Shown: positions 2,482 through 36,807 of the stretch, in pieces
Layout of the letters: every line of letters starts with the position of its first letter
How positions within the stretch are numbered: position 1 is the stretch's first letter
From: Haloferax sp. Q22
Lineage (GTDB): Archaea; Halobacteriota; Halobacteria; Halobacteriales; Haloferacaceae
Assembly (NCBI RefSeq): GCF_001482285.1
Contig: NZ_LOEP01000020.1
Location: 1-41,468 of the forward strand
Length of the DNA stretch: 41,468 nucleotides
Direction of reading: 5' to 3'
The notes under the pieces: model-generated
Databases searched by the model: none
Told to the model about the DNA's origin: nothing
The model's input: the letters and a program-made list of their open reading frames with translations, nothing else
Made by a program: the position numbers and the translations under genes

Positions 2482-2510
2482 AGGGTCACGTCCCGAGGCT
2501 TCCCGTGGGT
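2477..2510 (-). ncRNA. Probable TnpB element right end / omega-RNA hairpin
   Basis: Just after the tnpB stop, the minus strand folds as GCCTCGGG-loop-CCCTGAGGC (arms 2492-2499 and 2477-2485, one bulged base). IS200/IS605-family elements carry such hairpins at the right end, where the guide RNA of TnpB is made. The exact element boundary cannot be fixed by eye. Confidence 0.45.
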
Positions 2511-3787
2511 TAGTCGGACACTCCCATCTGACCATCGGCAGAGGAGCCTCGAACGGTCGGGTGGGTCACGGTCGGGGCGTCCACGGCCCCCGATGCCTGC
2601 CGTCGCACCTTCCTTACTGTGGGAAGGCTGTTGAGAGCAGACACATTCCAATCTTGATGCTTCTTGGTGCCTTTCACGGCGATGTTGACGCTTGCACCTC
2701 GGTCGCTGTGGTCTTGGTGCGCACAGTCTTTGCACTTGAACCGCTTCTTGTTACGGTTCGCTCGCTCCGTGTGCCCACATAGCGGACACTGCTGGCTGGT
2801 GTATTCAGGGTTAATCCAGCCAGTCGGGATGCCCTCGAATGACGCCTTGTACGACGTATAGAACTGGAGGGCGCGGAACGGGAGGTGGTGCAAGCGTCGG
2901 TTCATCCGCGTGCCGTAGTCGATACTGTCGCGCATCTCTTTGAGGTCTTCAAAGACGATGCACGGCTTCTCGAACTGACGGCTCCACTCCACGATGTGCC
3001 GAGATACCTTGTGGAGTCGGTCGCGGACAAACCGTTCTTCGCGCCCGTCCAGCGTATCGTGGATGCTGTCCTTCCCCGCGTTCTGGACGCGCTTGCGCAT
3101 CGTGAAGTAGCGGTGGCGCTCGAACTTGATTTCGGGGAAGTCAATGACCAACGTATCTTCGACACCGCTCTCGGAGAGTGCGGTCAACGCCACGTTGTCC
3201 TCGTTTACGTCCACGCCGACGACCGTCTGCGAGTCCTGCTTGTTTCGAACGGTCTGCTCAGTGTTAGTGACGGTGACGTGCAACTCGGGGTTGTCGTTGT
3301 GGAACAGGGCTTCCGCCGTCCCAATTTCCCACTGGCCGCTTTCGAGTGCAGTCGTAAGAATATCGAGATGACCATCACTCCCTTTGAGGACGCCCGTGAC
3401 GTGCTTGTACGGTTTCGCGCTGATGCGGAATGCCACGTTACTGTCGTCGGTGAGCGACAGGTTGTACCCCTCCTCGTAGTTCGCACGAAGCGGGTATGCA
3501 CCGTCCTTGGTGTGACTGGGTTGGCCAAAGTCGTCATACTCGTAGTAGTTCTCCATCGCGCCGAGGGCTTTGGCGACGACACGCTGCGTCGTGTTCTTCA
3601 CGAGGTTGGCGTCGTCGGCCATACGGTCGGGAATCGCGTCCCAGTCCTCATCTTCTTTGGCGAGTCGGATGGTTTCGTTGTACACCGAGCGCGATTCGAG
3701 ACAAGCATCATGGAGCAGGCTCTCGTTGTCACTCCGGATGTCGAGTTGGAAGTCCAGCGTCTTGATGAGTGCCTGTTCGTCGGTCAT
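2510..3787 (-). CDS. tnpB: TnpB-type RNA-guided nuclease of a solo IS1341-like element
   Basis: 425 aa, full length for haloarchaeal TnpB. The RuvC-like active site is intact: Asp in VGVDVNEDN (about residue 190), Glu in VFEDLKEM (about 273) and Asp in DHSDRGASVNIA (about 363). A zinc finger CPLCGH...CKDCAH lies between the last two (about 332-355). TnpB proteins are guide-RNA-directed endonucleases that help IS200/IS605 elements persist. No tnpA transposase is adjacent, so it is a solo (IS1341-type) copy that cannot move alone. Its 5' side touches the end of the small gene 3833-4201 and its 3' side touches the SWIM remnant. It is clearly different in sequence from the TnpB at 16909. Confidence 0.93.
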   Translation of the reverse strand: MTDEQALIKTLDFQLDIRSDNESLLHDACLESRSVYNETIRLAKEDEDWDAIPDRMADDANLVKNTTQRVVAKALGAMENYYEYDDFGQPSHTKDGAYPLRANYEEGYNLSLTDDSNVAFRISAKPYKHVTGVLKGSDGHLDILTTALESGQWEIGTAEALFHNDNPELHVTVTNTEQTVRNKQDSQTVVGVDVNEDNVALTALSESGVEDTLVIDFPEIKFERHRYFTMRKRVQNAGKDSIHDTLDGREERFVRDRLHKVSRHIVEWSRQFEKPCIVFEDLKEMRDSIDYGTRMNRRLHHLPFRALQFYTSYKASFEGIPTGWINPEYTSQQCPLCGHTERANRNKKRFKCKDCAHQDHSDRGASVNIAVKGTKKHQDWNVSALNSLPTVRKVRRQASGAVDAPTVTHPTVRGSSADGQMGVSD

Positions 3788-16908: not shown

Positions 16909-18159
16909 ATGGACGTGCGTCGAACCGCCGTCGTGAAACTCGACCTTTCCGACGAGCAACGTGACGTACTCCACCGAACCGCCGAGCAATACCTGTACTG
17001 CGCGAACCGAACCGCCGACTACTGTTGGTCCGATACCTCATACACCGAGTGCAAGACCAACAAACGGCAGGTGCGGGACGCGCTCTACGCCGACCTTCGA
17101 GAGGAGACGGACCTACAGGCACAACTCGTCCAAGCCGCCATCAAACGCGCCGTCGAAGCCATCAAAGGCGTTATCGAACGATGGAAGAAGGGACAGCGAG
17201 TCTCTTGCCCCACGTTCACCGCCGAAACGATGGACTACGACGCACGGAGCGCGACATTCTCCCGCAACAAGGTGTCGCTGGCGACTGTTGAGGGGCGGGT
17301 CGAACCGTCGTTCGTTCTTCCGGCAGACAGCCCGACGCCCTACGAGCGGCACGTACTCTCCGAGGATTACGAGTTCCGCGAGAGTACGGTTCGATACGAT
17401 GCGGTGGACGACGAGTTCTACATTCAAATCTCGACTCGGCGGATAGACGGCGACGACGACGAGGTTCCGGCAGATATCGGGCACCCCGACCAAACGGTCC
17501 TCGGTATCGACCTCGGCGTCAACTCGCTCGCCGTCTCCTCGACCGGCACGTTCTGGCAGGGAGACGACTACGACCATTGGTGCCGCGAGTTCGAGAAGCG
17601 ACGCGGTGAGATGCAACAGCGCGGGACGCAAGCCGCGCACAACGCGCTCCTACGGCTCGGAAAGCGCGAAGAAGCGTGGCGGAAACAGTACATCCACAGA
17701 GTCGCCAACGAACTCGTCACGGAAGCCGTCGAACACGACTGCGACGTAATCGTGTTCGAGGAGTTGACCGACATTCGAGAGCGGCTTCCGCAGGCAAAGT
17801 GGCACCACGTTTGGGCGTTTCGACGTCTGTCCGAGTACGTCAAGTACAAGGCCCCCGAGCAGGGTGTCTCTGTGGAGCAGGTTGAGCCGAACCACACGTC
17901 CCAACGCTGTTCTCGGACGGACTGTGGGTTCACGCACGAGGACAACCGTCACGGGGAACACTTCTGTTGCCAGAAGTGCGGGTACGAGGTGAACGCGGAC
18001 TACAACGGCGCGAAGAACATCGGGCTACGGTATGTCCGGAAGCGAACACACAGACTCCGGTCCTCGCCCACGTCGGGGAGCGGAGACGCACCAGTAGACG
18101 TGCGTGTGAATGGTGGGACGTTGAACGGTAAGAGTCACCAGCAGATTGCTGGCGACTGA
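16909..18159 (+). CDS. tnpB: TnpB-type RNA-guided nuclease of a second solo element
   Basis: 416 aa with intact RuvC residues: Asp in GIDLGVNSLAVSS (about 200), Glu in VFEELTDIRERL (about 282) and Asp in NADYNGAKNIG (about 364). Zinc finger: CSRTDCGF...CCQKCGY. The N-terminal VVKLDLSDEQRDVLHRTAEQ and NKRQVRDALYADLR segments are typical of haloarchaeal ISH-type TnpB. No tnpA is present. Both ends are defined by hairpins (16780-16822 and 18182-18231), giving an element of about 1.46 kb. The left end directly follows the leader of the 62-aa gene. It is only distantly related to the TnpB at 2510. Confidence 0.93.
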   Translation: MDVRRTAVVKLDLSDEQRDVLHRTAEQYLYCANRTADYCWSDTSYTECKTNKRQVRDALYADLREETDLQAQLVQAAIKRAVEAIKGVIERWKKGQRVSCPTFTAETMDYDARSATFSRNKVSLATVEGRVEPSFVLPADSPTPYERHVLSEDYEFRESTVRYDAVDDEFYIQISTRRIDGDDDEVPADIGHPDQTVLGIDLGVNSLAVSSTGTFWQGDDYDHWCREFEKRRGEMQQRGTQAAHNALLRLGKREEAWRKQYIHRVANELVTEAVEHDCDVIVFEELTDIRERLPQAKWHHVWAFRRLSEYVKYKAPEQGVSVEQVEPNHTSQRCSRTDCGFTHEDNRHGEHFCCQKCGYEVNADYNGAKNIGLRYVRKRTHRLRSSPTSGSGDAPVDVRVNGGTLNGKSHQQIAGD

Positions 18160-20837: not shown

Positions 20838-22238
20838 ATGCGACTCGAATTCGACGACGGAACCCTCCTGCTCCATGATGCCTCCGATGACACTCCGTAT
20901 GCGGAGTGGGACGACCGCGTCGACGAGTACCGCGCCCAGGCGTATCGGTATCGACCTCTCCTCGAATGGGCGGGTGCTTGGACAGACGGAAACGAGCAAT
21001 CTACGCTGCAGGACGGCTTCGCCCACGCTCTCGAAGACGCCGCACGGGCGTATCCTGCCCTCGATCTCACGCCAGCGCTCCACATCGAACCGCGCGACTA
21101 CCAGCAGGCCGCCCTCGACGCGTGGGTCGACCACGGCCGCCGGGGGAGTGTCGTGCTCCCCACGGGCAGCGGGAAGACGTTCCTCGGGCTGCAGGCCATC
21201 GCCAACGCCGGCGTCAGTGCGCTGGTCGTAACGCCGACGATTGACCTGATGAACCAGTGGCACGCCACGCTCACCAACGCCTTCGGCGACCAGCTCGCAC
21301 AGCCAATCGGCGTTCTCGGCGGCGGCAGCCACGAGGTCACCGCGATAACGGTCACGACCTACGACAGCGCCTATCGCTACGTCAACGAGTACGGCGACCA
21401 GTTCGGCCTCCTCGTCGTCGACGAGGAACACCACTTGCCAGCTCCGACCTACCAGCAGATCCCCGAGATGATGATCGCGCCGTATCGCCTCGGCCTCACA
21501 GCGACCTACGAGCGACCCGATGGCAAGCACGAACTCCTCGAGGACCTTCTCGGGCCGGTCGTCTATCGGGAGCACGTCGACGAACTCGCCGGCGAGTATC
21601 TCAGCGAGTACGAGACGATTCACATGTCGGTCGACCTCACAGCCGACGAACGCGAGACGTATGACGAGGAGTATCAGATCTATCGTGACTACGTCGACAG
21701 CCACGACTTCGAGCTCTGGAAGGAACGCGGCTACGCAGAGTTCCTCAAGCGCACGTCCTACGACCCGCAGGGACGGCGGGCGCTCATCGCCAAACAACGG
21801 GCCGAGCGACTCGCCCGGACGGCGACGAAGAAACTCGACACGCTCGACACGCTCATCAAACGCCATCACGACGACCGCGCCATCATCTTCACTGCGAACA
21901 ACGACTTCGCCTACGAGATCTCCCAGGAGTTCATCGTCCCCTGCATCACCCATCAGACCAAGACCGACGAACGCACCGAGATCCTGGAACGGTTCCGCAC
22001 GGGCGAGTATTCGATGCTCGCGACCTCCCAAGTTCTCGACGAAGGGATTGACGTCCCGGCGGCGAACGTCGGCATCATCCTCTCGGGAAGCGCCTCGAAA
22101 CGCCAGTACGCTCAGCGGCTCGGACGAATCCTCCGGCCGACGGACGACCGTCTGCCAGCACGTCTGTACGAGATTATTGCTGCGGACACGATGGAGACGT
22201 ACGTCTCCCAACGCCGTCGAGAGGGGGTGAATGCGTAA
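20838..22238 (+). CDS. XPB/Rad25-type SF2 DNA helicase
   Basis: 466 aa. Motifs: I PTGSGKT at 108-114, Ia VTPTIDLMNQW, II VDEEHH at 194-199, III LTAT at 220-223, V/VI DEGIDVPAAN and QYAQRLGRILRP near 430. The N-terminal damage-recognition-like region and the RED-type region are in the usual places for archaeal XPB, which unwinds DNA 3'-5'. The next gene begins within its stop codon (TAATG) and encodes Bax1, the known nuclease partner. The pair forms a helicase-nuclease complex. This accessory copy is probably additional to a chromosomal pair, which is inference. Confidence 0.88.
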   Translation: MRLEFDDGTLLLHDASDDTPYAEWDDRVDEYRAQAYRYRPLLEWAGAWTDGNEQSTLQDGFAHALEDAARAYPALDLTPALHIEPRDYQQAALDAWVDHGRRGSVVLPTGSGKTFLGLQAIANAGVSALVVTPTIDLMNQWHATLTNAFGDQLAQPIGVLGGGSHEVTAITVTTYDSAYRYVNEYGDQFGLLVVDEEHHLPAPTYQQIPEMMIAPYRLGLTATYERPDGKHELLEDLLGPVVYREHVDELAGEYLSEYETIHMSVDLTADERETYDEEYQIYRDYVDSHDFELWKERGYAEFLKRTSYDPQGRRALIAKQRAERLARTATKKLDTLDTLIKRHHDDRAIIFTANNDFAYEISQEFIVPCITHQTKTDERTEILERFRTGEYSMLATSQVLDEGIDVPAANVGIILSGSASKRQYAQRLGRILRPTDDRLPARLYEIIAADTMETYVSQRRREGVNA

Positions 22239-23590
22239 TGCTGACCGCAAACCTCGCGCGGTCACGCACGACCGACGAGACGATTACACCGCTGTTCATC
22301 GATCCATCTGAAGCGCGCTATCGTGAGACGGCACGGGAACTCCTCCAACTGTTCGAAGCCCACCTCAATGAGCCGAAAGGCGACCTCGAAGCCGAGATTG
22401 ACGAGCTGACTGTCGCGAATACCGACTACAAGATCGTCCAAGGATTCGCGAAACTCCTGAAAGACGAGTGTGAGTTCGAGGTCGTTGCTCCGGTTGACCC
22501 GCATACGATCCGCCAGCGGTTGTTCGAGAAAGCCAACGAGCGATACCCGATTGTCCGCCAGCCCACCCTTGGAGAGGACACGCAGAAATTGGAGGTGTAC
22601 AGTGCAGTGGCCGACGAACTGGGGATCTCGCTCGAAGACTGCTATCGTGGGATGTACGCCGATCTCGAGGACAACAAGCGGCTCGTTCGAATCGGCACGC
22701 GGACGGCCGAGCAGTACGCCAGTGATGCGTCGCCGTCGACGACGAATTTGACCGGAAACAGTGCCGAGGAATACGAACACACCGACCTCACCGTAGACTG
22801 GCTGCTGACCCGGTACAATCTCGCGCTGGCTCAGGCAGTCCTCTACGATGCGACTGAGATGCGGATTCGCGTCTGGGATCACTTCGGGACGGTGTTCAGC
22901 TACATGAAGCTGTTCGGCCTGATGCACCGCATCTATCCGATCGACGGCGACGGCGAGCGCGTTCCGAGTACGGACCAGGCCACAGGGTATGAGGCCGTGC
23001 TGGATGGACCAGCGTCACTCTTCTCGAAATCACAGAAGTACGGGATTCGCATGGCAAACTTCCTGCCGGCGTTACCTCTCTGTGACCGGTGGGAGCTGAC
23101 TGCCGAGATCCTCACTGATGAGACGATAGACGAGACGCGGCAGTTCAGACTTGACCACACCGAGACCCTTGATTCGCATTACAGTGCTGGCGATCAGTTC
23201 GATAGCGATGTTGAGCGGACGCTCGCCCAGAAATGGGCGCGAGCGAATACCGAGTGGGAGCTCGTACGTGAGGACGATGTCTTCGACCTCGGGGCCGAGG
23301 TGATGATCCCCGACTTCGCAGTCGAACACCCCGATGGTCGGCGGGCGATCCTCGAGATCGTTGGCTTCTGGACGCCCGAGTATTTAGAGTCAAAGCTAGC
23401 GAAGATCCGGCAGGTGGAGGCTGACAACTTCATACTGGCTGTCTCAGAGCGACTGGATTGTGCAAATGAGGACTTCGGACGGACGGCCGACCGAGTACTC
23501 TGGTTCAAAACCGGCATTCACGTCTATGATATGGTCGAATTGGTTGAAACAGTTGCTGCCTCGTCCGATACAACACCTGCTTCTAAGTGA
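22238..23590 (+). CDS. Bax1-type nuclease (DUF790), XPB partner
   Basis: 450 aa, Bax1/DUF790 family. The DNA-cleaving PD-(D/E)xK-like motif is visible as MIPDFAVEHPDGRRAILEIV followed by GFWTPEYLESKLAKI. Upstream there is LTVDWLLTRYNLALAQAVLY, typical of the family. Known Bax1 cuts DNA bubbles opened by XPB on the 3' side. The start codon overlaps the helicase stop by one base, so expression is coupled. It ends 140 bp before inverted-repeat copy 3. Confidence 0.88.
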   Translation: MLTANLARSRTTDETITPLFIDPSEARYRETARELLQLFEAHLNEPKGDLEAEIDELTVANTDYKIVQGFAKLLKDECEFEVVAPVDPHTIRQRLFEKANERYPIVRQPTLGEDTQKLEVYSAVADELGISLEDCYRGMYADLEDNKRLVRIGTRTAEQYASDASPSTTNLTGNSAEEYEHTDLTVDWLLTRYNLALAQAVLYDATEMRIRVWDHFGTVFSYMKLFGLMHRIYPIDGDGERVPSTDQATGYEAVLDGPASLFSKSQKYGIRMANFLPALPLCDRWELTAEILTDETIDETRQFRLDHTETLDSHYSAGDQFDSDVERTLAQKWARANTEWELVREDDVFDLGAEVMIPDFAVEHPDGRRAILEIVGFWTPEYLESKLAKIRQVEADNFILAVSERLDCANEDFGRTADRVLWFKTGIHVYDMVELVETVAASSDTTPASK

Positions 23591-28196: not shown

Positions 28197-29993
28197 TCAG
28201 GTCTCCGAGATGCCGAGCCGTCTCCGTACTTCGTCCAGCACCGCCCGCTCTCGCGCCTGGATGAAACTATCGAAATCGTCGTTCCAGAGTGCATCCACGC
28301 CATCCGCAGGGATGAGGTGCTCGGCGAGCCGTTCTTCGACCGACTCGTCCGCTGTCGCCTCGATGTCGCGGAGGTAGTCGCTCGGTTTTCGGTTACTGAT
28401 CTCCGTACGATTGGTCTCGTCGAGGATGAGCGCCCGATTGAGAATCGAGTGCTTGCGCTCGCCCGGGAGCGACAGCCCCTCCACGTTCTTCGGGAAGATG
28501 TGGTGGTCGTCTATCTGCGACGCATTGTACGTCCCCAGCCGCCGGCCTGTGTGGAAGTCCTTGGGGTTGTTGAGGCCAAACAGCCCGAGAATGGCCTTAT
28601 ATCGGCCACCCTGCGTGACGCTCTGGAGGTCGAGGGCGTTCGAGACAAAGTCCTCGTCCACCGTTCGGATACGTTCGGGCAAATCGCTGTCGTCCGCGAA
28701 CCAGGCGCGCATTTCGCGGTAGTCCTGCGACATGATGGTATCAGAGGAGCCACTGTAGTCCCGTGAGAGGGCCGCCGACCAGTACCATCGGACGAGGCGA
28801 TCGTTGAACGCCGGTTCCTCGAGCGTCTCGGTGAACCGTTCGTCGTACTCCCAGAGGAGCGCGGCCAGTACTGACAGGATGGTAGTGTTCGGAATGAATC
28901 CGTTCTTGATGGCGCCGAAGTCGTGCGTGCCGGTATTGATGATTCGCTGGCGGGCGGCCTCGCTGTACTCGATTGCGGTGTCCCACAACTGACGGAACTC
29001 GCCGACGGTCTCTACGGGCACCTCAACGCGACTGTCTCCTGGGGTGTCCCGACGTTCGACTTCGGTGCCGGGGATGAGCTGATAAATGTACTTCGAGGAG
29101 CAATACTCGCGCTGGCGCAGCGCAATGGTCTTCAGCACGTTCGTGCTCATCGAGTTGTCGACGGCCTTCAGCTGGTCATGGCCCGTGAGCTCGTCCCACT
29201 CCTTGCGGAGGGCGATGCCCTCCGGGTAGAGGAATGCGTTCATCAGGTCGAATGTCGACAGCGTCATGCCCTTCTTGTTGATCCGTGTGAAAATTTCGCA
29301 AACTTCCTCTAGCTTTGCCGTGTCGAGGATTTCGACGGAGAAGCGGTAGTTCAGAATACGATCGAAGATACCGTTGAACTCCCGGTAGAGGTTCATCTGA
29401 CTCATCTCGTTGACCGGGTGTCTTGGCTCGCTCCGCCGGTCGTGGTACTCCGTGAGACATTCCTCGAAGGTTTCCGAGTTCCGGAACTCGGCGTCCCGGA
29501 GTAGGCAGAGCGGGAACAGGCCCTGCTCGGGCAGCAGGTCGGGAAGCCGCTTCTTGAAATCTGCCGTGTCACGAGGATTGAGTCGGTACTCGTACTCGAC
29601 GGCCCCGTCGTACTCTTCCCGAAGACACGCGTCCATATCGAGGAAGAAGTAGTAGTACGACTTCCGGCTGGGGAAGGTCATCGCCGGTGAGTGAAGAGCG
29701 TAGTAGATCGACGAGAGCCGCTGTTGGCCGTCGAGAATGGCGTAGTTCGGGCTGTCGGCAAGCCGGTCTTCCGGGACGCCCTCGACGACGTCCCACATCT
29801 CGCCGCTCCCGTTGTAGTATTCCAAATCCCAGAGGAGCAGTGTCCCAGTGTAGTACTCGTCGAGGACGGAGGCGAAGAGGTCAGAGACCATCCCTGGGTC
29901 CCACTCGAAGCCACGCTGGAAGTGCGGGATAACGTAGTTCCCGTCGTCGATCTCGTCCAGCATTCGCTCCGTCGGTCGCTTGTCCTGTGTCAT
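28197..29993 (-). CDS. GmrSD-type modification-dependent restriction protein (DUF262 + HNH)
   Basis: 598 aa from ATG 29993 (MTQDKRPTERMLDEID). N-terminal DUF262 domain: IPHFQRGFEWDP (about 22-33), then AILDGQQRLSSIYYAL with the nucleotide-hydrolysis motif DGQQR at 88-92. C-terminal DUF1524-like HNH nuclease: IDDHHIFPKNVEGLS near 490, then HSILNRALILDETNRTEISN. Single-chain GmrSD proteins cut phage DNA with modified cytosines; related SspE-type proteins act with phosphorothioate systems, which are not visible here. The longer frame to 30170 is out of keeping with other starts. It lies beside McrBC. Confidence 0.88.
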   Translation of the reverse strand: MTQDKRPTERMLDEIDDGNYVIPHFQRGFEWDPGMVSDLFASVLDEYYTGTLLLWDLEYYNGSGEMWDVVEGVPEDRLADSPNYAILDGQQRLSSIYYALHSPAMTFPSRKSYYYFFLDMDACLREEYDGAVEYEYRLNPRDTADFKKRLPDLLPEQGLFPLCLLRDAEFRNSETFEECLTEYHDRRSEPRHPVNEMSQMNLYREFNGIFDRILNYRFSVEILDTAKLEEVCEIFTRINKKGMTLSTFDLMNAFLYPEGIALRKEWDELTGHDQLKAVDNSMSTNVLKTIALRQREYCSSKYIYQLIPGTEVERRDTPGDSRVEVPVETVGEFRQLWDTAIEYSEAARQRIINTGTHDFGAIKNGFIPNTTILSVLAALLWEYDERFTETLEEPAFNDRLVRWYWSAALSRDYSGSSDTIMSQDYREMRAWFADDSDLPERIRTVDEDFVSNALDLQSVTQGGRYKAILGLFGLNNPKDFHTGRRLGTYNASQIDDHHIFPKNVEGLSLPGERKHSILNRALILDETNRTEISNRKPSDYLRDIEATADESVEERLAEHLIPADGVDALWNDDFDSFIQARERAVLDEVRRRLGISET

Positions 29994-30200
29994 GTCATAC
30001 CCGCTCCGATCATATGATGCAGAGGTTCCGGTGGGAGCATAAACCTCGGCCTGGTTGGTCAGCAGACGATCGGGTACCGGTTGGCTTCCGAAGCGAGGTC
30101 GTGGCTGCGCGCGCAGCGCAGCGAGCACGGAGCGGAGGGTGGGGAGGTGGGGCCTGGGTCGGTCCGGCACGGAGCAAAAAAAGAAGACCGCGACGACCGG

Positions 30201-31982: not shown

Positions 31983-33368
31983 TTACAGTACTTGACCGAC
32001 CGAGTCAGAGTACTGGATAATCTTGATCTCATCCGGTGACTGTGCCTCCTGACCCAAATCGTCTGTAAACAGGAGTCCACGCACCGAGACAGAGTCAAGC
32101 ACGTCTTCCGGAGCTTCGACGTATGCCCCCGTCTGAGAGCGCTTGACGAACGCCATATACTCCAGTAATTCACGCAGTCCTGTCGCAACGTAGCCGATAT
32201 TTTGTGTGTACTTCACCTCGCCGACGAACACATGTGCAAGTTCGAACTCACCCGTCTCGTCCCGATCATAGCGTTCGAGCAGGATATCTGGGCGACCACC
32301 CCAGAGTGCATCGCTCCCGCTGTAATCGAGAAGGTCTTGCGAGAGCGACTTCCACCGCGTAAGTACTTGGTTCAGCCGGAAGAGATACCCATCCGGCTCC
32401 GCCGCATCTGGATCTAACGACTCTCGAAACGTAAGGGACTCACCAGTCGCGTCATGCGAGATCACAAACCGCGACCCGTCTTGTTCCCACGTCGCGACAG
32501 TCGAGGGATCGTTACGCCAGTGCGTCAGTACTCTGTACTCGACGGCATCATATGCGTCGAGGATACGGAAGATCCAGTAGAGTTCAAAGAGGGTCTCCGT
32601 TTCCTCCGGTGCGATGACCGTATGAGACAAGATGTCGTGAGCCTCGTCACTGTCGAGTTCTTGGTTCATCAGGCGGCGATAGCGATCCAAGAGGATGGCG
32701 GCATCACGGTAGAACGCCGACCGGGACCGCTTCACCGATTCGATTGTCCGGTCGGTCACGTCCTTATCGGCTTCTTCGATACGCTGGAGGTAGATATTCC
32801 GTTCATAGATTCGGTTGAGCTTGGCCGCTGCGGACTCCGGACTCCGGATCGCGGCATCAGTTGGTTTGACCCACTCTGACAGCCACTCGTAGCCATCTGG
32901 ATTCTCGACAGCCGGTTGCAAGTCGGTATGGACGATCTCGTGGACGATTCGCAGTAGTCGCTTCAGGACGAGGTTCTCGTCGACGTCGTAGCGTTCTTCG
33001 GACTGCCGGCAGACGAAAAGTGGTTCGTCGAAGCGGCCAGCTCGTGCCCGTCGCTTTGTCGTTCCCGGCCAGTCGATCCGGCCACGAATCTCACCTCGCT
33101 GTTCAACCGAGGTCGCTGAGACGGTCGTTTTCATCTGTCGGATACGGTCCTCTAACGTCCGCATGAAGTCGAGTACACCGACGGCCTCGTCGGTGTCACC
33201 AGTGTCCGTGAGGACGAAGTGAATCCGTAGCAGTGTCTCAATATCATCGACGTCGAGGTCCGGGTGGGCAGTGTCGATGACGCGGTCGAATCGAACGCCT
33301 TTCCTAAGGTACGTGTGGAAGTCATTAGCAATGTCCGCGAGGAGCGCCTGACTCGATGTTTTCGGCAT
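31983..33368 (-). CDS. McrC-like PD-(D/E)xK nuclease subunit
   Basis: 461 aa from ATG 33368, which lies 1 bp after the mcrB-like stop (TAGGATG). The catalytic core is near the C-terminus: ALWGGRPDILLERYD then HVFVGEVKYTQNIGYV, giving the PD...ExK signature. N-terminal helical region with LRIHFVLTDTGDTDEAVGVL and FRILDAYDAVEYRVLTHW. McrC proteins are recruited by the McrB GTPase ring and cut DNA. Operon order McrB then McrC is canonical. The longer frame to 33818 overlaps McrB and was rejected. It ends 62 bp before inverted-repeat copy 4. Confidence 0.82.
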   Translation of the reverse strand: MPKTSSQALLADIANDFHTYLRKGVRFDRVIDTAHPDLDVDDIETLLRIHFVLTDTGDTDEAVGVLDFMRTLEDRIRQMKTTVSATSVEQRGEIRGRIDWPGTTKRRARAGRFDEPLFVCRQSEERYDVDENLVLKRLLRIVHEIVHTDLQPAVENPDGYEWLSEWVKPTDAAIRSPESAAAKLNRIYERNIYLQRIEEADKDVTDRTIESVKRSRSAFYRDAAILLDRYRRLMNQELDSDEAHDILSHTVIAPEETETLFELYWIFRILDAYDAVEYRVLTHWRNDPSTVATWEQDGSRFVISHDATGESLTFRESLDPDAAEPDGYLFRLNQVLTRWKSLSQDLLDYSGSDALWGGRPDILLERYDRDETGEFELAHVFVGEVKYTQNIGYVATGLRELLEYMAFVKRSQTGAYVEAPEDVLDSVSVRGLLFTDDLGQEAQSPDEIKIIQYSDSVGQVL

Positions 33369-33369
33369 C

Positions 33370-36300
33370 CTACTCACTCCCTGACTCCAGGTCGACCTGG
33401 AAGAAATCGCTGGCAGTCGGCCAGAGTTCGTTCTGGTCATCGGCCACGATCGCGTCGAGCTCGTCGAGGACATCTTCGAGTTCGCCCCGTCGCAGCCCTT
33501 CCAACTGGGGGAACACGTACATGATGATGGGTGAGACGTAATCCGCATCCTCGACTGTCGGCGTCGAAGCGACGTACGTATAGATATCCTCGATGATGGC
33601 CGGTCCGATCGCACGTTGTTTGTTGACGGCATACCAGAGCCGACCGACCGGCTCAAAGTGTTGCTCAGCTTCGGGCACGTCCCCACCAGCCGACCAGACA
33701 GCGACGTATTCCCCGACGAGCTGTGCAAGCTTCGACTCACCGTCGGCAGTTTCCTCCTCGGGTGTTGGGAGGGTGGGAATCCCAATAGGGATAAATGCCC
33801 AGCGTCGCATGAATGCATAGCTCATCTCATACAGCGACGTCTTATCGAGCGTGTTCATCGTTGCGAGCATTCGCCAATCGTCCGGGATGTAGAATCGACT
33901 CGGACGGACGGTCGTGTCTGTCCTCGAAGAGTCAAGGATCTCAATCGGGTCGCCATTGGAGCCGTCGAATGGAAGGGTGACACTCTCGCCAGTGAGCGCG
34001 GAGAATAGCGAGCCGAACGCCTTGTCGATGTCCGCGCGATTGAGTTCGTCGATGATCAGCCACTCGTTTGCAGGTGTCCCATCAGTATCGGCCTGGAAGC
34101 GATCGAGCACGACACCGGGCTGGAATTCGAGCGTGTTCTCAGCGGTCGTCTGATAACCACCGACGGTGTCGAACGTCGACCAGTCAGCGGACGCAGTCAC
34201 TATCTCGTAGTCACTCTCGCCGACGGTCGCCTCACACACCTGCCGTGCTAGCTTCGTCTTCCCTGTCCCCGGTGGACCGAAGAACAGGACGTGATTCCCG
34301 CTCTCAAGAGCGCGCTGAACGCGCGACTCGATGGTATCCCACTCCTGCTCGGGGAAGTACAGTGGCCCCGAGTCGACAGTAACGCCCTCTGAGAGCGCCG
34401 CTATATCGTCGGTGTGATCGTCGAACGTGACCTGTGTCCCGAGTTCGAGGATTCGATCGTACTCCGCTTCGGTGAGTTCCGTGATTATCGAATTGTTTTT
34501 ACTCTGGATAATCTCGCTTTTTGCCAGTTGACGGTCGTCAACGACTTGCTCCCATGTTGCCCCATCGAGGGCCGAGTCCCATTCGATCGTAATGCCTTCG
34601 ATCTCTCTGCCGTGCTCTTCTGAGTACTCTTCGTGGAGGCCTTCGGAGACGTGGGCTTGTGCGACGATCGCCCTGGTCGGCGCCACCTGATAGAGGAGCA
34701 CCTTGTCACCCGGTCGGGCGAGCTTGTACGCCTCGAGATTTAGCCGTGGAGATCCGGAGGGACCAATCGTCGCATAGAATGCAGTGGCACCATCTTCATG
34801 GCGGAACATTTCCTCGTTCACCCAGAAGTATCGGGTCGACGAATCCGGTCGGTCGATGGGTGCCAACTCCTCAAGTGCTAAGATAGTCTCGTACTCGTGC
34901 GGAGAGAGTTCGAACAGGCTCCCTTGGGCCCGATTTCGGATCGGAGAGGCTTCTTCGAGGTCAGGAAGGTCGGTGAGCTGCTCCCATGTAATCGGTTCCA
35001 CTCGCCGATCGTACTGAATCGTGATTCCATCGATTGCCCCGCCATACTCCTCTTTCGTCTCTTCGTGCAATCCCTCGACGATCGTGCCTTCGGCAACGAT
35101 GGCCTTCACAGGATTCGACTCGTAGAAGACGACCCGGTCGCCCGGCGATACGGATTCGAATGCGCCGACGATACGCCGCTTGTTCCCGTTCGAGTTGGTG
35201 GCAGTGTAAAATATCTCACCACCGTGTGCGATACTGTCGACTGACCAGATATCGGGGTTCGCCGTAATCCAGTAGTAGTCCGGACCAGTCATGCCCCCAA
35301 GGAGATGCTCAGCTGCAGCGTCGGTCAAACGACTTAGATAGGTCTGCGTGACCTTGCCGTTGCTGTCGAGGGGGTAGTATTTCTCGCCGCGGACGTCGTC
35401 ACGCATCAAGTAGTCGCGTACCTCGTCGATCGACTGCGGTTCGTCGAACTGTTCGAAGTCAACGTCGACACGATAGCGGCTCTCTCCGTTTTGTTCGATT
35501 TCAGATACTTCTGAGGTGACGGTTGAATATCCGATGATCTCCGGGCGGTGATAGTGAATCATCGTGTCACCGACATCGAGTACGGTGAGGTCGTGGTGCC
35601 AGACATCGTCGACAGACGCCTCGAGATATTCGTTCTCAATCTCGTCACGGTTCGTCTGCGTCACCCAGTAGACCGACGACTCTCCATCTGTTGGTCGCTG
35701 TTTTATGTCGAGAATTCTCTCATACAGTTCAATTGCTGCATCAGACGGTTCGTCTTCGATACTCTGATCATCGACTTTATCGATGATATTGAACAGCTGG
35801 TCAACTTCAAATCGAATCGGGACGGTAACACCGTGGTCTGCGTCCCTCGTCGCGTAGCCGACGATCCGTTCGTACGTTGCGAGGAATTCGGTGAAATACT
35901 GCTCCCCTTCGGCGTACGAACGGGGATCCTCATAGCCGAAGAACGTAAGCCCGTTCGTCGATGCAGCGTTCAGTATTGGGTGGTCGTCAATGTGGAGAGA
36001 GCCGAAGAGTTCTCGGACGGTCGTCCTTCCGCCTAGAGAATCCTCCCATTTATCGTTGTACTGGTCGGCATTGCGTATCTCCTCGATAAGACTCGCGAGA
36101 TCATCGATAGATCCACTCCACTTATTCAGAATCTGGGTCGCTTGCCCTCCCTGGATGGCGGAATGCATCTGATTCCACATCGCTTTGAAACGCTCAGGCG
36201 TGGGGTTTGCAATGAACTTGTCTGCGCGTTTGGGGATCACATCCGTCCGGTTGTGTCCTTCTAGGTCAAATTCAGCACCTGATGGTATCGTTTGCACGAC

Positions 36301-36807
36301 ATCTCGCCACTGCTCAAGAATCGCTCGTTGCTCAGCAGTCAGTGACGGACCCAGAATCTCGTTCTGAACGATGGCAGTGTACACCCGGTCAAGATCGTCG
36401 TCGTCCGGGCCATCTGCTGAACTCACTGTGCGGGGCGGTGCGTAACTCGTGGGATAGTCTAAAGCGCGATTGACCGTCCCTCTATCATAGCCTTCGGTCG
36501 GATTGTACCATCGCTCCCAGTCAACCGAGACGTGATACTCCGTGCTTTCATCGCTGGGGACGACCTTCCGGTCGGGATCTGTGATCGCTGACTCGTCCCA
36601 TGGTTCGGTGACCGTCCCTGCAGCAATGTACTGTCCGGAGGGCTGATCGTACAAGAGAATGTGGTCACCAGCGTCAAGCGAACGGAGTTGTTCACCGTAT
36701 TCTTCAGGCCCATATGTGGCCACGACACCGAGCTCATTGAACAATCGAGAGAAGTCGACATCCGGCTCGTTCTGCCGATTCGAGTGGACCAAATATGTAT
36801 CAGGCAT
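33370..36807 (-). CDS. McrB-like GTPase with four EVE-like domains
   Basis: 1145 aa. C-terminal AAA+ GTPase of McrB type (about 830-1145): FGPPGTGKTKLARQV near 841, WLIIDELNRADIDKAFG and ATMNTLDKTSLYEMSYAFM, the McrB hallmark. The N-terminal 800 residues contain four segments of EVE/YTH-like pattern (aromatic-rich start, then GDxxxxYxxxxxxxxAxGxV): about 1-130 (DAGDHILLYDQPSGQYIAAG), 378-500 (VYWVTQTNRDEIENEYLEAS), 510-655 (YYWITANPDIWSVDSIAHGG, AIVAEGTIVEGL) and 658-790 (YFWVNEEMFRHEDGATAFYA, AIVAQAHVSEGL). EVE domains bind modified bases. EVE-McrB fusions are known; four copies in one chain is unusual. The gene is divergent from the 37003 regulator. Confidence 0.85.
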   Translation of the reverse strand: MPDTYLVHSNRQNEPDVDFSRLFNELGVVATYGPEEYGEQLRSLDAGDHILLYDQPSGQYIAAGTVTEPWDESAITDPDRKVVPSDESTEYHVSVDWERWYNPTEGYDRGTVNRALDYPTSYAPPRTVSSADGPDDDDLDRVYTAIVQNEILGPSLTAEQRAILEQWRDVVQTIPSGAEFDLEGHNRTDVIPKRADKFIANPTPERFKAMWNQMHSAIQGGQATQILNKWSGSIDDLASLIEEIRNADQYNDKWEDSLGGRTTVRELFGSLHIDDHPILNAASTNGLTFFGYEDPRSYAEGEQYFTEFLATYERIVGYATRDADHGVTVPIRFEVDQLFNIIDKVDDQSIEDEPSDAAIELYERILDIKQRPTDGESSVYWVTQTNRDEIENEYLEASVDDVWHHDLTVLDVGDTMIHYHRPEIIGYSTVTSEVSEIEQNGESRYRVDVDFEQFDEPQSIDEVRDYLMRDDVRGEKYYPLDSNGKVTQTYLSRLTDAAAEHLLGGMTGPDYYWITANPDIWSVDSIAHGGEIFYTATNSNGNKRRIVGAFESVSPGDRVVFYESNPVKAIVAEGTIVEGLHEETKEEYGGAIDGITIQYDRRVEPITWEQLTDLPDLEEASPIRNRAQGSLFELSPHEYETILALEELAPIDRPDSSTRYFWVNEEMFRHEDGATAFYATIGPSGSPRLNLEAYKLARPGDKVLLYQVAPTRAIVAQAHVSEGLHEEYSEEHGREIEGITIEWDSALDGATWEQVVDDRQLAKSEIIQSKNNSIITELTEAEYDRILELGTQVTFDDHTDDIAALSEGVTVDSGPLYFPEQEWDTIESRVQRALESGNHVLFFGPPGTGKTKLARQVCEATVGESDYEIVTASADWSTFDTVGGYQTTAENTLEFQPGVVLDRFQADTDGTPANEWLIIDELNRADIDKAFGSLFSALTGESVTLPFDGSNGDPIEILDSSRTDTTVRPSRFYIPDDWRMLATMNTLDKTSLYEMSYAFMRRWAFIPIGIPTLPTPEEETADGESKLAQLVGEYVAVWSAGGDVPEAEQHFEPVGRLWYAVNKQRAIGPAIIEDIYTYVASTPTVEDADYVSPIIMYVFPQLEGLRRGELEDVLDELDAIVADDQNELWPTASDFFQVDLESGSE

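Follow-up and report, generated by a model that had tools for sequence, protein, structure and literature searches.

The stretch of DNA analysed here (the window) comprises the 41,468 nucleotides of contig NZ_LOEP01000020.1 from Haloferax sp. Q22. It carries on the minus strand an mcrB-type gene, with an ATG start and free of internal stops, whose product shows the domain order E1, helical domain, E2, E3, E4 and GTPase. The open reading frame of a divergent McrC-type partner starts at 33368, one base past the mcrB stop. The features of both genes are collected in Table 1.

Table 1. Features of the mcrB-type gene and of the gene next to it (positions in the window)
Feature	Positions	Strand	Basis
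mcrB-type gene, 1145 aa, four EVE-fold domains and GTPase	33370..36807	-	ORF, Pfam, PDB
E1, residues 1-125, divergent EVE/YTH-fold domain (predicted)	36433..36807	-	AF2, Foldseek, hhalign
Helical domain, residues 150-372, tentative HhH-GPD (DNA glycosylase) fold without catalytic residues	35692..36360	-	AF2, Foldseek, hhalign
E2, residues 376-506, VcaM4I-type EVE domain, pocket candidates E389, Q488, Y490	35290..35682	-	PDB profile, Foldseek, residue mapping
E3, residues 508-648, EVE domain	34864..35286	-	Pfam EVE, tree
E4, residues 656-792, EVE domain of second clade	34432..34842	-	Pfam EVE, identity to E3, tree
McrB GTPase (AAA+), residues 816-1140, NxxD signature	33388..34362	-	Pfam, PDB, motifs
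Divergent McrC-type partner, 461 aa, PD-(D/E)xK signature	31983..33368	-	position, motif

The C-terminal region of the McrB-type protein (around 330 residues) is a GTPase that matches Pfam AAA_5 (E=3e-16) and, in a PDB search, the structures of E. coli McrB (E about 1e-12). The three motifs by which an AAA+ protein is assigned to the McrB GTPase family are present, that is, Walker A (GPPGTGKT, residue 844), Walker B (LIIDELNRA, residue 917) and an NxxD-type motif (MNTLDKT, residue 984). The last one separates this protein from the CoCoNuT systems, whose definition (PMC11090510) includes an NxD motif that is not found in this GTPase. Fusions of EVE domains to McrB are a known and common kind of McrBC type IV system (Bell et al. 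2020, PMC7641849). As in those fusions, the EVE domains of this protein lie ahead of the McrB GTPase and a McrC-type partner is encoded downstream, whereas the presence of four EVE-fold domains of different subfamilies together with a helical domain sets it apart. Related to this, the GTPase of the Thermococcus gammatolerans McrB is among the PDB matches; it is likewise an archaeal McrB with a reader of the EVE superfamily, but its only reader is YTH-like and is reported to bind m6A (cited in PMC7641849).

The sequence-only reading had described four EVE-like domains before the GTPase. All four turned out to be of the EVE/YTH (PUA) fold by sequence, profile or fold comparison, and neither folds outside the EVE/PUA type nor a reduction to one or two domains, which would have spoken against that description, was found. 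E3 is recognised on its own by Pfam EVE (41.3 bits, cut-off 23). E4 alone stays under this curated cut-off (18.8 bits), but its homology to E3 is secure from the 36% identity of the two domains (z=35 over shuffles) and from the tree described below. As for E2, its score against Pfam EVE is only 0.019, but a PDB search with its family profile retrieves VcaM4I by its EVE domain (4.2e-9), and its AF2 model matches the VcaM4I structure at 1.3e-8 in Foldseek. E2-type domains were found in 48 of the 392 sampled genomes of the order.

E1 is the most divergent case: the domain alone has no match in a Pfam search, its profile gave only chance-level matches in the PDB, and the shuffle test of domain pairs is uninformative for E1 and E2, the pair E1-GTPase piece scoring about as well as E1-E2. 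Nevertheless, its AF2 model (pLDDT 90) has Foldseek matches that are almost all EVE, YTH or ASCH domains (best E 3.8e-4, probability near 1), with moderate TM-scores (0.4-0.6). In hhalign comparisons with the profiles kept apart, E1 reached 91-96% against EVE (95.6% for an EVE profile containing no E1 sequence) and about 95% against E2, and unrelated profiles stayed below 2%. A 100% match of the iterated E1 profile to EVE was discarded as circular, the profile having absorbed EVE sequences. E1 is accordingly counted as a predicted EVE/YTH fold, recognised only through fold and profile comparison. E1-type domains are present in 18 of the same 392 genomes, and some of the E1 relatives exist as small proteins of their own, in which motifs are conserved. 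Among them, L151-L156 (150-231 aa) carry the domain in small proteins, some of which have a short N-terminal segment resembling a ribbon-helix-helix. No E1 relatives were found in the viral contigs searched.

The helical domain (around 220 residues) separates E1 from E2. The AF2 model of the helical-E2 part has a mean pLDDT of 89, and the Foldseek matches of the helical domain to MutY, EndoIII and MagIII are weak (E about 0.1, probability 0.4-0.6); against the 8-oxoguanine glycosylase (OGG) chain a value of 0.05 was obtained, with unrelated Nop56 chains slightly better, and one member of the helical-domain family matches Ogg-HhH at 0.005. In hhalign, a plainer helix-hairpin-helix subgroup (L148, L150, L160 and L010) scored 51% with glycosylases and 97% with the group of this McrB, whereas the latter group on its own reached 1% against glycosylases. 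Should this weak alignment be correct, Asn and Thr stand in place of the Asp and Lys that glycosylases use for catalysis. An HhH-GPD DNA-glycosylase fold may thus be proposed only tentatively, with the balance of probability lying against it. A search of a viral fold library with the helical-E2 model gave no useful match. In one McrB (L148:4575-5570) the helical domain occurs twice in succession, and its second copy shows a plain helix-hairpin-helix motif; in another genome an E1-helical-E2 relative (L134:1004-3850) has its frame broken by a TGA stop. With regard to the layout, the count of four in the proposed tandem array of readers stands; on the other hand, the array is not unbroken, the helical domain splitting E1 from the E2-E3-E4 block.

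The reference for the pockets is the EVE-HNH endonuclease VcaM4I (6YEX, 6YMG), in which P24, W82 and Y130 form the base-flipping pocket for 5mC and 5hmC, E15 lies at the Watson-Crick edge and the wedge is Q128 (PMC7897488). E2 is homologous to this EVE domain and keeps three pocket residues: E389 is the counterpart of E15 (Glu in 27 of 28 aligned rows), Y490 that of Y130 (28/28) and Q488 that of Q128 (22/28). In contrast, the W82 loop is missing in all 28 rows, P24 is replaced by S398, and E2 is fused to a GTPase where VcaM4I has an HNH nuclease. In E3 and E4 the aromatic residues Y534 and Y678, respectively, occupy the position of W26 in 2eve, as read from the alignment. Elsewhere E3 and E4 differ from each other (W521 versus F667; AQGSLF versus SKNNSII), and since pocket residues differ, the readers probably differ in ligand.

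The two segments that had been quoted from the repeats were both located, AIVAEGTIVEGL in E3 and AIVAQAHVSEGL in E4. The duplication within the gene that they had been taken to indicate is, however, contradicted by maximum-likelihood trees, in which E3 and E4 fall into two clades split at 100/100, each together with EVE domains of other McrBs; a local duplication is thereby rejected, and the parts of the protein differ in origin. Identity to E3 reaches 70% among the single EVE domains of other McrBs; for E4 it reaches 51%, in a different set of McrB EVE domains. The remaining parts of the protein have relatives of their own. The GTPase is 72-76% identical to that of L001-L008, McrBs which have an E4-type EVE domain and neither E1 nor an E3-type one. 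Compared with L131-L135, E1 is 50-54% and the helical domain 60-62% identical, but the GTPase only 27-29%, and the McrC of these loci belongs to another family. L020, L028, L142 and L144 share 64-70% identity with E3 and 39-43% with the GTPase. The gene is thus a mosaic, in that E1-helical, E3 and E4-GTPase have their closest relatives in different McrB lineages, and the simplest reading is an exchange of modules among three or more such lineages. Among the McrB homologues these modules are found in other combinations as well, and no more than one EVE-type domain is detectable in most of them.

Pairs of EVE domains do occur elsewhere. Six haloarchaeal McrBs (L204-L209) have two of them immediately before the GTPase, so that the same two clades are adjacent there as well; unlike in this gene, the first copy lies on the E4 side of the tree and the second on the E3 side, and E1 and E2 were not detected. 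As the order is reversed, the pairing of the E3 and E4 clades was probably put together at least twice, and such a repeated assembly is suggestive of an advantage, short of proof.

The partner family has an invariant WGGRPD...GEVK pattern, which constitutes a PD-(D/E)xK signature, with D361, E384 and K386 invariant. Genes of this family lie next to most of the McrB relatives found, and it is conserved across haloarchaea, Bacilli and further groups; in one plasmid record a member is annotated as 'hypothetical protein'. Comparison with McrC and DUF2357 profiles or structures gave no match in Pfam, PADLOC or the PDB, and formal membership of McrC fails. An hhalign comparison with another McrC family is weak (3-11%), yet in register over the GxIDW...eN segment. 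By position and motif, the partner can be described as McrC-like and as a predicted nuclease.

Several other genes lie in the surroundings. Close to the McrBC pair there is a GmrSD-type DUF262 gene (28197-30170; Pfam 1.5e-30), whose product carries DDHHIFPK close to the C-terminus and which is possibly a second type IV-like system; a DUF262 gene is also found near the related McrB of L214. The window also includes two TnpB-type (Cas12f1-like) genes (2510-3787 and 16909-18159) and an XPB-type helicase gene (20838-23590) that overlaps a DUF790 gene. Just upstream of the related McrB of L214, on a Natronosalvus plasmid, queC, queE and a QueD-like gene for 7-deazaguanine synthesis are encoded (L214:2532-4609); this association may be due to chance, and from it 7-deazaguanine DNA marks can be named as a candidate ligand. 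The host genome contains one match to C5-type and one to N4/N6-type DNA methylases; therefore, the readers must tolerate those marks or be kept from them.

Taking these data together, the protein is best explained, with a probability somewhat above even, as a subunit of a modification-dependent (type IV) restriction system whose readers serve different modifications or bind one target jointly. Each EVE domain would flip a base out of the DNA and test it in its own pocket. Since the pockets differ, the complex would answer to several modifications, which is our first choice, or grip multiply modified DNA more tightly. The readers would then recruit or trigger the GTPase and, by analogy with characterised McrBC, GTP-driven translocation and cleavage by the McrC-type partner would follow. 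The GTPase, translocation and cleavage steps are established knowledge for McrBC. What weighs against this account is that the partner fails the formal McrC family tests and that some of the domains may not be base readers, as E2 is without the W82 loop, E4 lacks AQGSLF and has F667 for W521, and no pocket could be assigned in E1. A bolder version, which we regard as improbable, would make the protein a combinatorial reader: besides four pockets for different ligands, a dead glycosylase fold would probe bases as a fifth module. A single McrB complex would then sense several DNA modifications unrelated to each other, or a pattern of them, and haloarchaeal McrBs would evolve by swapping modules of this kind.

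In the strongest of the alternatives, less likely than the multi-reader account by a clear distance, modified bases are truly read by just one or two domains (E2 and E3 being the likeliest), and E1, E4 and the helical domain serve as spacers or as clamps that bind DNA in general. Several residues of the characterised pocket are indeed kept in E2 only, E4 deviates from the conserved positions of E3, and the scarcity of EVE-type domains in the majority of McrBs found fits with a small number of readers. Nevertheless, the E1 relatives that exist as standalone small proteins with conserved motifs indicate that this domain works alone, and the recurrence of E3/E4-clade pairs in six other McrBs also speaks against this alternative.

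The direct adjacency of E2, E3 and E4, together with the assembly of the E3/E4-clade pair in both orders, as if the presence of both mattered, would agree with AND logic, in which the readers act only jointly, on modified bases that are multiple or lie side by side, and not on alternative marks. This is rather unlikely, because the domain order is not conserved and the modules have been swapped singly between proteins, which fits better with independent modules. Modified RNA as the target, as proposed for CoCoNuT systems, is very improbable: RNA binding is common to YTH and many other domains of PUA fold, and there are many YTH RNA readers among the Foldseek matches of E1, but the GTPase has NxxD where CoCoNuTs have NxD, HEPN and cold-shock domains were not found with Pfam, the partner has a PD-(D/E)xK signature and VcaM4I, the characterised relative of E2, binds DNA.

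Within EVE-McrB the four-reader mosaic is new, and no second example turned up in the genomes searched. The four-reader set was seen in no other protein among 99 McrB homologues, examined with module profiles and an approximate motif scan, a search of limited sensitivity in which many N-terminal parts match no module, and at no locus in a pattern scan of 84,980 species, whose sensitivity is also limited. The searched text of Bell et al. 2020 (PMC7641849) makes no mention of multiple EVE domains in one McrB, nor were several EVE domains per McrB found in the open-licence literature searched, supplementary tables aside, so that an earlier listing is possible.

The characterised modification-dependent restriction enzymes cited here have one reader per protein and the mosaic has four. 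This mosaic and the EVE-EVE pair built in both orders suggest that the accumulation of readers answers the diversity of viral DNA modifications, and such readers could give new detectors of base modifications.
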